In this document: positions 21,014 to 24,457 of the stretch, one piece after another
How the letters are laid out: every line of letters begins with the position of its first letter
How positions within the stretch are numbered: position 1 is the stretch's first letter
Assembly (NCBI RefSeq): GCF_000744705.1
Contig: NZ_JQML01000001.1
Span: 9,186,017 to 9,250,016, forward strand
Direction: 5' to 3'
DNA: 64,000 bases
DNA from: Streptacidiphilus albus JL83
Lineage (GTDB): Bacteria; Actinomycetota; Actinomycetes; Streptomycetales; Streptomycetaceae
Notes under the pieces: model-generated
The model's input: only the letters and a program-made list of their open reading frames with translations
What the model was told of the DNA's origin: nothing
Databases searched by the model: none
Translations under genes and position numbers: made by a program

Positions 21014-21874
21014 TCACACCTTGTCGGCCGCGATCATCAGGTACTGGAAGCTTCCCTCCTGGTAGCCGGTGAGGAACGGCGACTCGATGCCGGTCGCCAC
21101 CGAGGAGCCGGCGCGCAGCTCCCAGTAGGGAATGGTCGCGGCGGTCAGGTCGACCACGCTGATGGGGACCAGGTTGTTGGCCGCCATCGCGGCGAAGTAC
21201 TCGCTGCGCGGGTGGATGTCGCAGATGTAGTGCGCATCGATCTGACTGACCGCCCGGGACGGCTGGCGGCCGTGGACGTCGTTGTAGCAGCCGGTGATGG
21301 TGACGTAGCGTCCGCCCGGCGCCAGGACCCGGGCGTGCTCCGCGAAGAGCTTGTGCAGGTCCACGTACATGGTGCTCTCGTTGTTCCAGATCGCCCGGAA
21401 CGTGGCGTCGGCGAAGCCGTTGTCCAGCATGTTCCGGAAGTGGAAGGCCACCTTGTCGGCCACGCCCCGCTCCCGGGCCTGGTTGTTGGCGAACTTCACC
21501 TGCTCCTCGGAGATGGAGATGCCGTCGACCTGGCAGCCGAACCGGAGGTTGGCCACGAAGCTGGTGCCGCCGCGGCCCGAGCCGGCGTCCAGGATCCGGT
21601 CCTCCGCGGCGAGGGCGCCGAGCTGGTCCACCAGGAAGTCGGCCTGGGCGGCCTCCAGCCGGTGCATCTCCCTGATGGTCCGCTCGTCGCGGGTGGCCTC
21701 GGGGCCTTCGAACACGGACCCGTCGACGTCGCCGATGCCGTAGTGGTGGTGGTAGGTGCCGGAGACGTCGCCGAGGCGCAGGTTGACGGGGTCCTTCTCC
21801 TTGTTCCAGTAGTCCGCCACGGACTGCTGGTACTTGGTGGCGAGGACCGGGGCGGGGGCGTCGAGCATCGTCAT
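21014..21874 (-). CDS. gppMT: Geranyl diphosphate 2-C-methyltransferase
   Basis: 286 residues, full family length. SAM-binding motif ILDAGSGRGGTSF near residue 95, the family N-terminus YQQSVADYWNKEKDPVNLRLGDVSG, and the aromatic pocket stretches YHHHYGIG and IWNNESTMYVDL. It methylates C2 of geranyl diphosphate using SAM, giving 2-methyl-GPP, the substrate of 2-methylisoborneol synthase. It begins 4 nt after the stop of the synthase gene, with an AAGGGA site inside the end of that gene, so the two are translationally linked. Third gene of the operon. Confidence 0.95.
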   Translation of the reverse strand: MTMLDAPAPVLATKYQQSVADYWNKEKDPVNLRLGDVSGTYHHHYGIGDVDGSVFEGPEATRDERTIREMHRLEAAQADFLVDQLGALAAEDRILDAGSGRGGTSFVANLRFGCQVDGISISEEQVKFANNQARERGVADKVAFHFRNMLDNGFADATFRAIWNNESTMYVDLHKLFAEHARVLAPGGRYVTITGCYNDVHGRQPSRAVSQIDAHYICDIHPRSEYFAAMAANNLVPISVVDLTAATIPYWELRAGSSVATGIESPFLTGYQEGSFQYLMIAADKV

Positions 21875-21878
21875 CTGG

Positions 21879-23015
21879 TCAGTTCCCTTGGGTTCGGTTG
21901 TAGCGGGGGCTTCCGGCGTGCCACTCCTTGTTGCCGCCGAGCCAGGCCCACAGCGCCCCGAGGTAGCGGGTCAGGACCGGGTCCCCGGCCAGGCTGAGGA
22001 CGGCCGCGGAGGCCTCGTAGGAGCGCACGAGTTCGTCGTGGATGTCGGCGGAGCGCCGGATCGCCTGCTCCAGGGAGCAGCCGTCCTCGGCCATGAGCAC
22101 CGTGGGCAGGTTGTACTCCAGCCCCTGGGCGCCGCCCTCCTTGTGCATCGAGTAGACGTCGTTGAGCAGCACTGATGCGAGGGCGGCCTGGAGCGTGGCG
22201 TTGCGGACGTCGCGGCGTCCGTAGACCTCGGCGGGTACCTCGTACCCGCCGACGGAGTCGACCAGCGTCATGCACGGCAGGAAGCTGTTCATCTGACGGT
22301 TGGCCAGGTACTCCCAGACCGGTGGCGGGGTGCCGTCGATGCGCCATCCGGCCTCGGCGTCCATGCCGAGGAACAGACCGGCCAGCTCCTGCCTGAGCCG
22401 GTTGATCTGCGCTCCGCCCGCGTACTCCGCCAGCTGCTCGACGGACCGGTGCAGGGCGTGCCACACCGGTTGCTCGCGAAGGGCGCGTCGGTACTGCTCC
22501 CGGTAGCGGAGCGGCATCCGGGCCGGGTCGATCGCCGACTGGGAGAGCATCAGCTCGGGGCCCAGCCGCTGGGGCCGGCCGCCGGTGGCGGCCGTGTCGC
22601 AGAAGTAGTCGTCGACGGCGAACTCCGCCGCCATGCACCGGCCTGCGGCCAGCAGTCGGTCGGGGTCGTCGGTGTCGGGGTGGGTCAGCATCAGCAGCCG
22701 GCCGAAGTCCGCCCTGCGGAACTCCTCGATCCGGCCCTCGTAGATGCCCATCTGCTCGGCCCACTGGACCAGGCGTTCGTTGACCTCCTCGCCGAGCGCG
22801 GGGTCGTCGCGCAGGGCCGGCGGGCAGTAGAGCTCGGGCACGGCGCCCGCGCCGCGGGGCGTCGCCGCCGCTGCGGGCGTTGCCGTCCCCGGGGCGGCGG
22901 GGTCGGCCCGGGGACGCCGCAGGTCGGCGATCCGGGCCGCCGAGGTGCCGAGCCCGGTGGGGCCGGTCGGCAGCCGCCGCGCTGCTCGGGCGGCGGGTGG
23001 TCGTGGATCCGGCAT
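21879..23015 (-). CDS. 2-methylisoborneol synthase (class I terpene cyclase, encapsulin cargo)
   Basis: 378 residues. Residues 1 to about 58 are Pro/Ala-rich and look disordered. The cyclase domain follows, with the Asp-rich metal site VDDYFCD (D135, D136) and the NSE triad NDVYSMHKE (N285, S289, E293). It cyclises 2-methyl-GPP to 2-methylisoborneol, the earthy-musty odour. An AGGAGG ribosome site precedes ATG 23015. In family 2B encapsulin systems the disordered N-terminus of this enzyme is reported to direct loading into the shell; the shell gene here lies 29 bp upstream. Confidence 0.95.
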   Translation of the reverse strand: MPDPRPPAARAARRLPTGPTGLGTSAARIADLRRPRADPAAPGTATPAAAATPRGAGAVPELYCPPALRDDPALGEEVNERLVQWAEQMGIYEGRIEEFRRADFGRLLMLTHPDTDDPDRLLAAGRCMAAEFAVDDYFCDTAATGGRPQRLGPELMLSQSAIDPARMPLRYREQYRRALREQPVWHALHRSVEQLAEYAGGAQINRLRQELAGLFLGMDAEAGWRIDGTPPPVWEYLANRQMNSFLPCMTLVDSVGGYEVPAEVYGRRDVRNATLQAALASVLLNDVYSMHKEGGAQGLEYNLPTVLMAEDGCSLEQAIRRSADIHDELVRSYEASAAVLSLAGDPVLTRYLGALWAWLGGNKEWHAGSPRYNRTQGN

Positions 23016-23044
23016 CGGGTCCTCCTGTCCTGGGGCGGTGGCGG

Positions 23045-24457
23045 TCAGGACCGGGGAGCGGCGATGTCGACGTTCTCCAGGATGCCGACGGCATCCTGGA
23101 CCAGGACCGCCACCGAGTAGTAGGCGGTCACCAGGTAGCGGATGAGCGCGGTGTCGTCGATGCCCATGAAGCGGACGTTCAGGCTGGGCTCGTACTCGTC
23201 CGGGAGGCCGGTCTGGTGCAGCCCGACCACGCCCTGCCGGTCCTCCCCGGTGCGCATCGCGAGGATCGAGGAGGTGTGCCCGTCGGTGACCGGGATCTTG
23301 CCGCAGGGGAAGATCGGCACGCCCCTCCAGGAGGGGATGCTGTGGCCGCCGACATCGGTGCTGCCGGGGTTGATGCCGCGCTTGTTGCACTCGCGGAAGA
23401 ACGCCGCGATCGCCTTGGGGTGGGCGAGGAACAGGTCGGTGCCGCGGCGCATCGACAGCAGGTCGTCCATGTCGTCCGGGGTCGGCGGGCCCGACCAGGT
23501 GTTGATCCGCTGGTCGTAGTCGGCGTTGTGCAGCAGGCCGAACTCCCGGTTGTTCAGCAGCTCCCACTCCTGGCGCTCGCGGATCTCCTCGACCGTCAGC
23601 CGGAGCTGCTGCTCCAGCTGGTTCATCGGGTCGTTGTAGAGGTCGGCGACGCGGGAGTGGACGCGGAGGACGGTCTGCGTCAGCGACAGCTCGTACTCGC
23701 GGGGCGTGAGGTCGTACTCCACGAAGGAGCTGGGGATCTCGTGCTCGCCCTCGTGGCCGGCGGAGACGGCGACCTCCACCTCGCCCTTGGAGTTGACCTT
23801 GCGTGAGGAGGCCGCGAGGAAACGGCCGATGTGCCCGCGCAGCGCCTCCGAGCGGTCGAGCAGCTCGGTCAGGGACTGCCAGGGCAGCACCATGACGGTT
23901 CCGGCGGTGGTGGCCGTGACCGTGGCGGTCCACAGCGGATCGCTCTGCAGCAGGGCCTCGTCGCCCAGGTGGTCGCCGTCGCTCAGCACCCCGTGGATCG
24001 TGCGGTCGCCGTACTTCCCGGTCGAGCTCCGCTCGATGCGACCGTGGGCGACGATGAAGACCTCCTCGACGGGGTGGCCCTCCTCCACGATCACCTCGCC
24101 GCTGCGGAAGTCGCGGGCAGTGAACCGGCCGGCCAGCTCGCTGAGCAGCGCGTCGTCGTCGAGACCGCGCAGCACCGGGATCTCGCGGAGGGTCTCGGGC
24201 ACGATCGCCACGTCGTCCGCACCGGCCTGGACGAAGCCGACCCGGCCCCGGCCCACGGCCAGCGAGAGCCGCCGGTTGACCCGGTAGGTGCCGCCGTTGA
24301 CCTGCACCCAGGGGAGCCGGCGCAGCAGCCAGCGCGAAGTGATGCCGCGCATCTGCGGGGCGGACTTGGTGGTGGTCGCCAGGTTGCGGGCGGCGGCGGT
24401 GCTCAGGCTGGACCAGGGTCGGCCCTGGAAGGCGGACATGTCTGTCTCGGTCGACAT
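23045..24457 (-). CDS. eshA: Family 2B encapsulin shell protein with cyclic-nucleotide-binding-like domain (EshA-like)
   Basis: 470 residues. Order: N-terminal arm (1-90); a cNMP-binding-like beta-barrel (about 92-215, [21 protein letters not shown] and [10 protein letters not shown]); a linker; then an HK97-type encapsulin domain (about 245-470, [43 protein letters not shown], ending [13 protein letters not shown]). It should self-assemble into an icosahedral protein cage. The usual cNMP phosphate cassette (PR-x-AT) reads PLWTAT here, so the ligand arginine is absent and classic cNMP binding is doubtful. First gene of the operon with the terpene synthase and methyltransferase, hence the shell for them. 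Confidence 0.92.

Follow-up and report, generated by a model that had tools for sequence, protein, structure and literature searches.

A family 2B encapsulin operon of Streptacidiphilus albus JL83 with a terpene cyclase from a clade separate from 2-methylisoborneol synthase

Organisation of the locus

The window, a 64,000-nucleotide stretch of the Streptacidiphilus albus JL83 genome, contains at positions 21014-24457 three consecutive minus-strand genes encoding, in reading-frame order, a family 2B encapsulin shell, a class I terpene cyclase and a geranyl diphosphate (GPP) 2-C-methyltransferase, with gaps of 29 bp between shell and cyclase and 4 bp between cyclase and methyltransferase. The shell gene likewise lies upstream of the cyclase gene, and the methyltransferase gene downstream, in 68 of 80 related loci (a sample with two loci from some species), so the order is not a chance arrangement and the three-gene operon is genuine. 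The original prediction was correct in placing a terpene cyclase gene in one operon with the shell. A search for a second shell partner nearby found none within the operon; the genome's other two shells are located at 1.56 and 4.25 Mb. The genes for a P450 (19575-20918) and a TetR protein (18880-19473) were considered as conserved pathway partners and rejected, as neither had a homologue at E < 1e-30 in more than two of the 80 loci with related cyclases (clade X, below) or in any of five Kitasatospora loci.

The shell and the methyltransferase

The shell (23045-24457, minus strand) is a protein of 470 aa combining an SrpI-like, HK97-type fold with a cNMP-like insertion. It scores 733 bits on the NCBIfam model encap_f2b (NF041163; cut-off 400) and 446 bits on Pfam PF19307, and its best PDB relative by sequence is 9bhu_A (629 bits). 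The cNMP_binding domain (PF00027, 67 bits) occupies residues 115-202 (23852-24115, minus strand), and both the family 2B assignment and the cNMP-like domain of the original prediction are borne out by these matches. When aligned to two PDB domains, however, the shell has Trp176 (23930-23932) in place of the phosphate-binding Arg of canonical domains, and hence lacks the Arg-to-cyclic-phosphate contact of a functional cyclic-nucleotide-binding domain. Trp is found at this position in 81 of 83 X-locus shells, 119 of 119 database shells, and the shells labelled Y (7/7), orphan (5/5) and own (2/2), but in just two of four 2-methylisoborneol synthase (2-MIBS) shells. Judged from this residue, the domain appears in line with the statement, in the portion of PMC12407261 drawn on here, that the cNMP-like domains of these shells do not bind cyclic nucleotides; the same portion describes large two-fold pores in the Streptomyces lydicus shell, partly covered by the cNMP-like domain. 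By analogy with relatives of solved structure, the window shell would be expected to assemble into an icosahedral particle.

The methyltransferase (21014-21874, minus strand; 286 aa, no loading tag) scores 504 bits on GPPMT_Stmyces (NF041943; cut-off 400), in agreement with the GPP methyltransferase originally proposed, and 350 bits against 4f84_A. Its identity is 55-58% to the partners of 2-MIBS (9 rows) and 57-89%, with a mean of 71%, to those of clade X (84 rows); the methyltransferase groups overlap, X to Y identity being 51-85%.

Clade placement and active site of the cyclase

The cyclase (21879-23015, minus strand; 378 aa, ATG at 23015) is a class I enzyme and a probable cargo, scoring 479 bits on NCBIfam f2_encap_cargo2 (NF041167; cut-off 400). 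The name 2-methylisoborneol synthase given in the original prediction is not upheld, since the protein falls in a separate clade, shares 35-37% core identity with the 2-MIBS lineage (34 rows), and is accompanied by a 2-MIBS orthologue elsewhere in the genome (276 kb, L026:13847-14941). Against S. coelicolor 2-MIBS (3v1v) the window cyclase scores 207 bits and the genome's other cyclase 611 bits. Within-group core identity is 76-100% for 2-MIBS and 49-100% for X. Clade X is one side of a branch with support 97/95 that was present in 100% of 200 bootstrap trees, and the branch of the 2-MIBS clade has support 100/99. The tree comprised 59 of 132 aligned rows, from which the split cyclase of L090 (two frames) and the 1-kb piece L178 had been removed; it represented 2-MIBS by orthologues of the S. 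coelicolor enzyme, leaving out that sequence itself, the characterised cyanobacterial 2-MIBS and two characterised 2-methylenebornane synthases. Its root was not relied on because the single outgroup is very long and drew a program warning. The two lists of 120 homologues, retrieved with the window cyclase and with 2-MIBS, have no identical sequence in common among the matches listed, and plasmid searches with both cyclases for characterised C11 synthases returned only Streptomyces and Nonomuraea records.

The Asp-rich metal motif DDYFCD spans residues 135-140 (22596-22613, minus strand) and the NSE motif NDVYSMHKE residues 285-293 (22137-22163, minus strand). All 87 X rows have D135, D136, R240, N285, S289 and the R371-Y372 pair, and 86 have E293. 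D135 and D136 are also found in 34 of 34 2-MIBS rows, and in 10 and 5 of the 10 Y rows, respectively; over the 131 rows of X, 2-MIBS and Y together, N285 and S289 occur in all and E293 in 130. Several nearby positions separate the groups: residue 132 is Trp/Phe in 87/87 X rows versus Asn in 34/34 2-MIBS rows, residue 244 Ser/Ala (87/87) versus Asn (34/34), residue 246 Leu (62/87) versus Arg (34/34), residue 290 Met (81/87) versus Tyr (34/34), and residue 356 Trp (87/87) versus Ala (33/34, with one gap). As far as the alignment indicates, the catalytic motifs of the X cyclases are intact, with group-specific changes by the metal motifs. In the structural model, in which 274 of 378 residues have a pLDDT of at least 90, residues 243-245 form a break between helices 233-242 and 246-256, a position that holds the effector residue in class I synthases of other kinds. 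The model matches 4zq8 and 3v1v at TM (target) 0.91-0.92 and 36-37% identity.

The putative cargo-loading tag

The N-terminal 60 residues of the cyclase (22836-23015, minus strand) are predicted to be disordered, the six ten-residue blocks having mean pLDDT values of 42-55, and contain the conserved element GPTGLGTSAAR at residues 18-28 (22932-22964, minus strand). The window protein thus has the make-up of a cargo-type cyclase, as anticipated from its tag-like N-terminus, and the consensus GPTGLGT is proposed as a possible targeting sequence in the section of PMC8346489 consulted. The tag core is common to the X and 2-MIBS lineages; a relaxed pattern found it in 118 of 120 homologues of each cyclase, among the matches listed, as compared with 33 of 6000 shuffled controls. 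In the alignment the pattern occurs in 83 of 87 X rows, the exceptions being L093, L102, L103 and L183 (the last with a near variant), and is missing in six of ten Y rows; L176 cannot show it because the locus starts at a contig end and lacks the N-terminus. At the DNA level, GPTGLGT is encoded at six places in the genome, and at none for a reversed-pattern control. One belongs to the window cyclase. At the remaining five the element reads [YW]DGPTGLGTPDG and the protein looks secreted, which shows that the seven-letter core lacks specificity by itself. These five presumably resemble S53 proteases, although a Pfam search returned no peptidase match in any of them, and they were rejected as additional cargo.

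Distribution of the two cyclase lineages

X carriers are found in Streptomyces, Kitasatospora, Nocardia and Micromonosporaceae, the last represented by L038 (Catellatospora), L041 and L058 (Longispora). A methyltransferase gene is present in 77 of the 80 X loci, in 76 of them at most 1.5 kb downstream on the same strand, and a shell gene in 75. In the stretch examined, no methyltransferase was found at L045, L058 and L090, and 2-methyl-GPP may therefore not be the substrate everywhere. Among 14 genomes of the window's genus, 10 carry X and four 2-MIBS, both occurring only in the window genome itself; both lineages are likewise found in Kitasatospora azatica, Streptomyces piniterrae, S. sp. HU2014, S. 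olivoreticuli and S. sp. RPT161. A family-wide 2-MIBS search covering 249 genomes was used for picking loci. Longispora albida and Nocardia amikacinitolerans, whose homologues are counted as 2-MIBS in the part of PMC10520479 that was available, carry X cyclases (L058 and L078), the match to that publication being by species only.

Proposed pathway and alternative explanations

The explanation that we favour, and regard as reasonably likely, is that the operon specifies a family 2B encapsulin whose cargo is a class I cyclase other than the 2-MIBS orthologue, giving a C11 terpenoid with a different main product. The methyltransferase, outside the shell, would convert GPP and SAM into 2-methyl-GPP; the disordered N-terminus would direct the cyclase to the shell lumen, with GPTGLGTSAAR as an address label common to this cargo class; and 2-methyl-GPP, entering through the pores, would be converted inside to a C11 terpenoid that is not mainly 2-methylisoborneol. 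The separate clade, the methyltransferase at 77 of 80 loci, the intact motifs with their group-specific changes and the co-residence of both lineages together suggest that X is probably a C11 synthase with a main product other than 2-methylisoborneol. Two enzymes may nevertheless have a common product at 36% identity. A rather unlikely reading, that of the original prediction and automatic annotation, is that the window cyclase is a 2-methylisoborneol synthase that has diverged in sequence but kept its function. This reading would account for the fold shared with 3v1v (TM (target) 0.92), the shared methyltransferase family, the source name '2-methylisoborneol synthase' on several X relatives (apparently automatic), and an operon order equal to that given for the 2-MIB operon of most actinomycetes in the portion of PMC10881772 used here; the near-exclusive distribution of the lineages across the genus would also fit functional replacement. 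It sits poorly with a core identity of just 35-37%, with the separate 2-MIBS orthologue in the window genome and the five organisms that hold both lineages, and with the group-specific substitutions at the helix break and beside each metal motif.

A special case of the different-product explanation is that X is the 2-methylenebornane synthase lineage, in which the same bornyl-type cation would lose a proton rather than be quenched by water. This assignment is unlikely, although 2-methylenebornane is a candidate main product: the changes Asn to Trp/Phe, Arg to Leu and Tyr to Met lower polarity and could disfavour water capture, and one of the two synthases described in the excerpt of PMC5908152 comes from Micromonospora olivasterospora (the other from Pseudomonas fluorescens), Micromonosporaceae being the family of the X carriers L038, L041 and L058. 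The tie to these two synthases is, however, one of taxonomy, and the compound is also listed, in the pages of PMC10881772 at hand, among the products of a cyanobacterial 2-MIBS in yeast. It is very improbable that the cyclase accepts an unmethylated prenyl diphosphate and forms an ordinary monoterpenoid, the methyltransferase serving another enzyme such as the unlinked 2-MIBS; loci L058 and L045, with X cyclase and shell but no methyltransferase in the stretch examined, and the source name 'Camphene synthase' on some X proteins (a name only) would agree with this, whereas the close downstream methyltransferase at nearly all X loci argues against it. The 4-bp gap suggests coupled translation and, with the tight operon, might point to a methyltransferase packaged with the cyclase and both steps inside the shell, but the tag motif was found in none of 104 methyltransferases (another loading signal being possible) and the window enzyme has 14 residues ahead of its core. 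Co-packaging is accordingly improbable, and from the missing tag the methyltransferase is predicted to stay outside the shell.

Shell and cyclase phylogenies

The shell tree, built from 47 of 221 aligned shells, disagrees with the cyclase tree. The window shell falls together with shells from genus-mates and from Y-type operons, and the starred branches force at least four label changes among shells adjoining X cyclases; from the trees, it looks as if shells were exchanged between cassettes. Old shell duplications followed by loss are a possible but doubtful substitute for exchange: with one to three shell matches in every genome of the genus, some paralogy may be hidden, while the forced changes ask for several losses. 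We tentatively suggest that C11 terpenoid synthesis inside encapsulins forms a modular family rather than a single odour pathway, in which several cyclase lineages with different products use one tag and exchanged shells, any family 2B shell, even an unlinked one, being able to serve. On this view the window holds one such non-2-MIB lineage, in a genome that also has an unlinked 2-MIBS carrying the tag and two additional shells.

Significance and comparison with known systems

The shell and the likely packaging route are already known in outline, and the survey in PMC8346489, in the part considered here, groups single-domain cyclase cargos under the single heading '2-MIBS-like'; many of these cargos bear the name 2-methylisoborneol synthase in source annotation. 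If X makes another product, there would be a distinct encapsulated volatile in Streptomyces, Kitasatospora, Nocardia and Micromonosporaceae, genome-based counts of 2-MIB producers may be too high, and natural shell/cargo combinations would be at hand with which to find the shell residues that recognise the tag.

Among characterised relatives, S. coelicolor 2-MIBS (3v1v, 4la5, 4la6) shares with the window cyclase the class I fold and, as features of its lineage, the metal motifs, the RY pair and the tag core, but differs in core identity and at residues 132, 244, 246, 290 and 356. The S. lydicus terpene synthase 4zq8, whose title names no product, is the top structural match, yet it scores 375 bits with the genome's 2-MIBS and 223 bits with the window cyclase, and so lies closer to 2-MIBS. 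The 9bhu_A system, which we take to have a tagged cyclase cargo in a three-gene cluster and a true 2-MIBS as that cargo, resembles the window in shell family and cNMP-like insertion, whereas the window cargo comes from another cyclase clade. The 2-methylenebornane synthases of P. fluorescens and M. olivasterospora, as presented in the excerpt of PMC5908152, use 2-methyl-GPP, the substrate proposed here. The two-component family 2B encapsulins of S. lydicus, in the portion of PMC12407261 cited above, likewise have family 2B shells with domains above two-fold pores, but the window operon has one shell gene and the other two shells lie megabases away.

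Gene identities and cyclase lineage

The operon consists of three consecutive minus-strand genes on a single 9.9-Mb contig, encoding the shell (24457-23045), the cyclase (23015-21879) and the methyltransferase (21874-21014), with intergenic gaps of 29 bp and 4 bp, respectively. The original prediction of an encapsulin shell and a geranyl diphosphate (GPP) methyltransferase was borne out, both proteins scoring above the curated NCBIfam cut-offs of 400 bits (encap_f2b, 733 bits; GPPMT_Stmyces, 504 bits); the cyclase matches f2_encap_cargo2 at 479 bits (cut-off 400). Elsewhere in the window, Pfam assigns adjoining genes at 50467-54065 to a type III polyketide synthase, an ICMT-type methyltransferase, an FAD oxidoreductase and a UbiA prenyltransferase, which we take to resemble a phenolic lipid cluster, and identifies an SH3-domain protein with collagen-like repeats at 7181-7810.

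The cyclase had been named a 2-methylisoborneol synthase (2-MIBS), a label that the sequence comparisons do not support: 3v1v, the Streptomyces coelicolor 2-MIBS, scores 207 bits against it versus 611 bits against the second cyclase of the same genome (L026:13847-14941, at 276 kb), and the two belong to separate clades. The homologue lists of these cyclases (best 120 of 779 for the window cyclase and best 120 of 1298 for the 276-kb cyclase) have no identical sequence in common. In an alignment of 87 rows from the clade of the window cyclase (X), 34 from that of 2-MIBS and 10 from intermediate cyclases (Y), core identity ranged from 34 to 47% for X against 2-MIBS, with the window cyclase at 35-37%; the corresponding ranges were 33-44% for X against Y and 51-64% for 2-MIBS against Y. 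In a maximum likelihood tree of 59 rows with 200 bootstrap trees, X formed one side of a branch (support 97/95, 100% of bootstrap trees), as did 2-MIBS (100/99), and the Y rows did not form one group. Judged by these sequence comparisons, the window cyclase is not the 2-MIBS orthologue; X and 2-MIBS cyclases occur together in five named organisms. Its nearest neighbours in the tree are two Kitasatospora rows (100/99), and since the X cyclases of genus-mates are only 48-52% identical to it, the window copy may have been acquired by transfer.

The 276-kb cyclase is a stand-alone 2-MIBS orthologue with a variant of the N-terminal tag, SPSGLGTSGLRL, and neither shell nor methyltransferase was found in the 20 kb examined around it. 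A second shell and a second GPP methyltransferase, the latter 74% identical to that of the window, occur at 1.56 Mb (L004:8564-11322) in a tail-to-tail arrangement, with no cyclase in the 19 kb examined. A third family 2B shell, at 4.25 Mb (L005:9662-11224), is accompanied by neither a cyclase nor a methyltransferase within the 19 kb examined; among the shells compared, it is most similar (81-83% identity) to L188, L189 and L190, shells of the genus that also stand alone. A third, more distant GPP-methyltransferase homologue (380 bits, under the curated cut-off of 400) was identified at 4.73 Mb (L031:8264-9145); the same stretch carries a UbiA-type prenyltransferase gene.

Cyclase active site

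X rows retain the Asp and NSE metal motifs as well as Arg240 and the Arg371-Tyr372 pair, so the window cyclase should be an active enzyme. Five positions differ between 2-MIBS and X, namely 132 (Asn 34/34; Trp 81/87 and Phe 6/87), 244 (Asn 34/34; Ser 76/87 and Ala 11/87), 246 (Arg 34/34; Leu 62/87, otherwise another residue), 290 (Tyr 34/34; Met 81/87) and 356 (Ala 33/34 with one gap; Trp 87/87), with Y rows mostly agreeing with 2-MIBS at 132, 244 (8/10) and 246. In a structure model of the window cyclase (mean pLDDT 86.3, built on a 26-sequence alignment), helix 118-144 carries residues 132 and 135, helix 268-293 carries 285-293, and residues 243-245 separate one helix from the next, a break that has an effector role in class I synthases.

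Predicted cargo loading and shell features

The N-terminal tag (residues 18-28), described earlier (PMC8346489), lies in a domain that, according to PMC10520479, lowers the activity of S. coelicolor 2-MIBS. Its core, sought as P-[TSANGVP]-G-[LIFPV]-G-[TSIV] in the first 200 residues, occurs in 118/120 of the best homologues of each cyclase, and in 33/6000 shuffled 110-residue N-termini of the X list. Among aligned rows, it is present in 83/87 X, 32/34 2-MIBS and 4/10 Y, the other six Y rows having a PGPP-type motif. An [MV]S[LV]L[ST]R element ahead of the tag starts 71/98 cyclase homologues (P0023-P0120) and 0/22 of the window cyclase's own subclade (P0001-P0022); it is possibly a second loading or docking element. 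The tag is kept by each of the seven X cyclases whose compared stretch shows no shell (L053, with the variant PGGIGT, L054, L077, L085, L105, L179 and L180), by the 276-kb 2-MIBS, and by three Y and four 2-MIBS rows that likewise lack a shell in the stretch. At least one shell match is present in each of the 14 genomes of the genus, so cargo loading in trans is plausible for such cyclases. For the methyltransferase (METHYLTRANSFERASE), the tag was found in 0/104, both in the last 60 residues before the core and in the core; the enzyme is predicted to lie outside the shell, and 2-methyl-GPP, made outside, would then have to enter it.

In weak alignments of the shell's cyclic nucleotide (cNMP)-like domain to the PDB chains 5dyk_A and 9ya0_MA, Trp176 falls opposite the Arg of canonical domains. 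Trp occupies this position in 81/83 X-locus, 119/119 database, 7/7 Y and 5/5 orphan shells, in 2/2 other shells of the window genome, and in 2/4 2-MIBS-locus shells, the other two having His. The domain is reported in PMC12407261 to sit over large two-fold pores and, citing Andreas and Giessen, not to bind cyclic nucleotides; speculatively, the almost invariant Trp might point to a different ligand.

A tree of 47 shells (200 bootstrap trees), including four X loci with two shells, did not recover X-associated shells as one group: five label changes were counted, of which starred branches force at least four, and a single origin appeared in 0% of bootstrap trees. The window and Kitasatospora shells group with Y-type and genus shells (100/99). 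Since X cyclases form one clade and their shells do not, cassettes appear to have swapped shells, a reading based on few Y and 2-MIBS shells (7 and 4); duplication with loss is the rival explanation. X loci with two shell genes (L086, L088, L101 and L104) occur in MAGs of Pseudonocardiales and Thermomicrobiales and possibly encode two-component shells.

Comparison with known systems

Among 80 X loci from genome records (best 80 of 338), 77 have the GPP methyltransferase, 75 a shell within the compared stretch and 68 the order shell, cyclase, methyltransferase. In 19 chosen loci (10 Y, 9 2-MIBS), the methyltransferase is present in 17 (8 Y, 9 2-MIBS) and the shell in 11 (7 Y, 4 2-MIBS). On these gene counts, one operon plan houses at least three cyclase lineages. 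The plan itself, with a nucleotide-binding protein, MIBS and GPPMT in most actinomycetes, is already known from PMC10881772.

The class of encapsulin-terpene systems is already known. Encapsulin and 2-methylisoborneol literature from 2022 on was not found in the collection searched, and a 2024 paper on the S. griseus encapsulin reportedly exists. Within the passages searched, no X-type cyclase was recognised as having been functionally tested. Assignment of 2-methylisoborneol as the specific product is probably incorrect; relative to the literature searched, the best description of the operon is encapsulated synthesis of C11 terpenes by an uncharacterised lineage.
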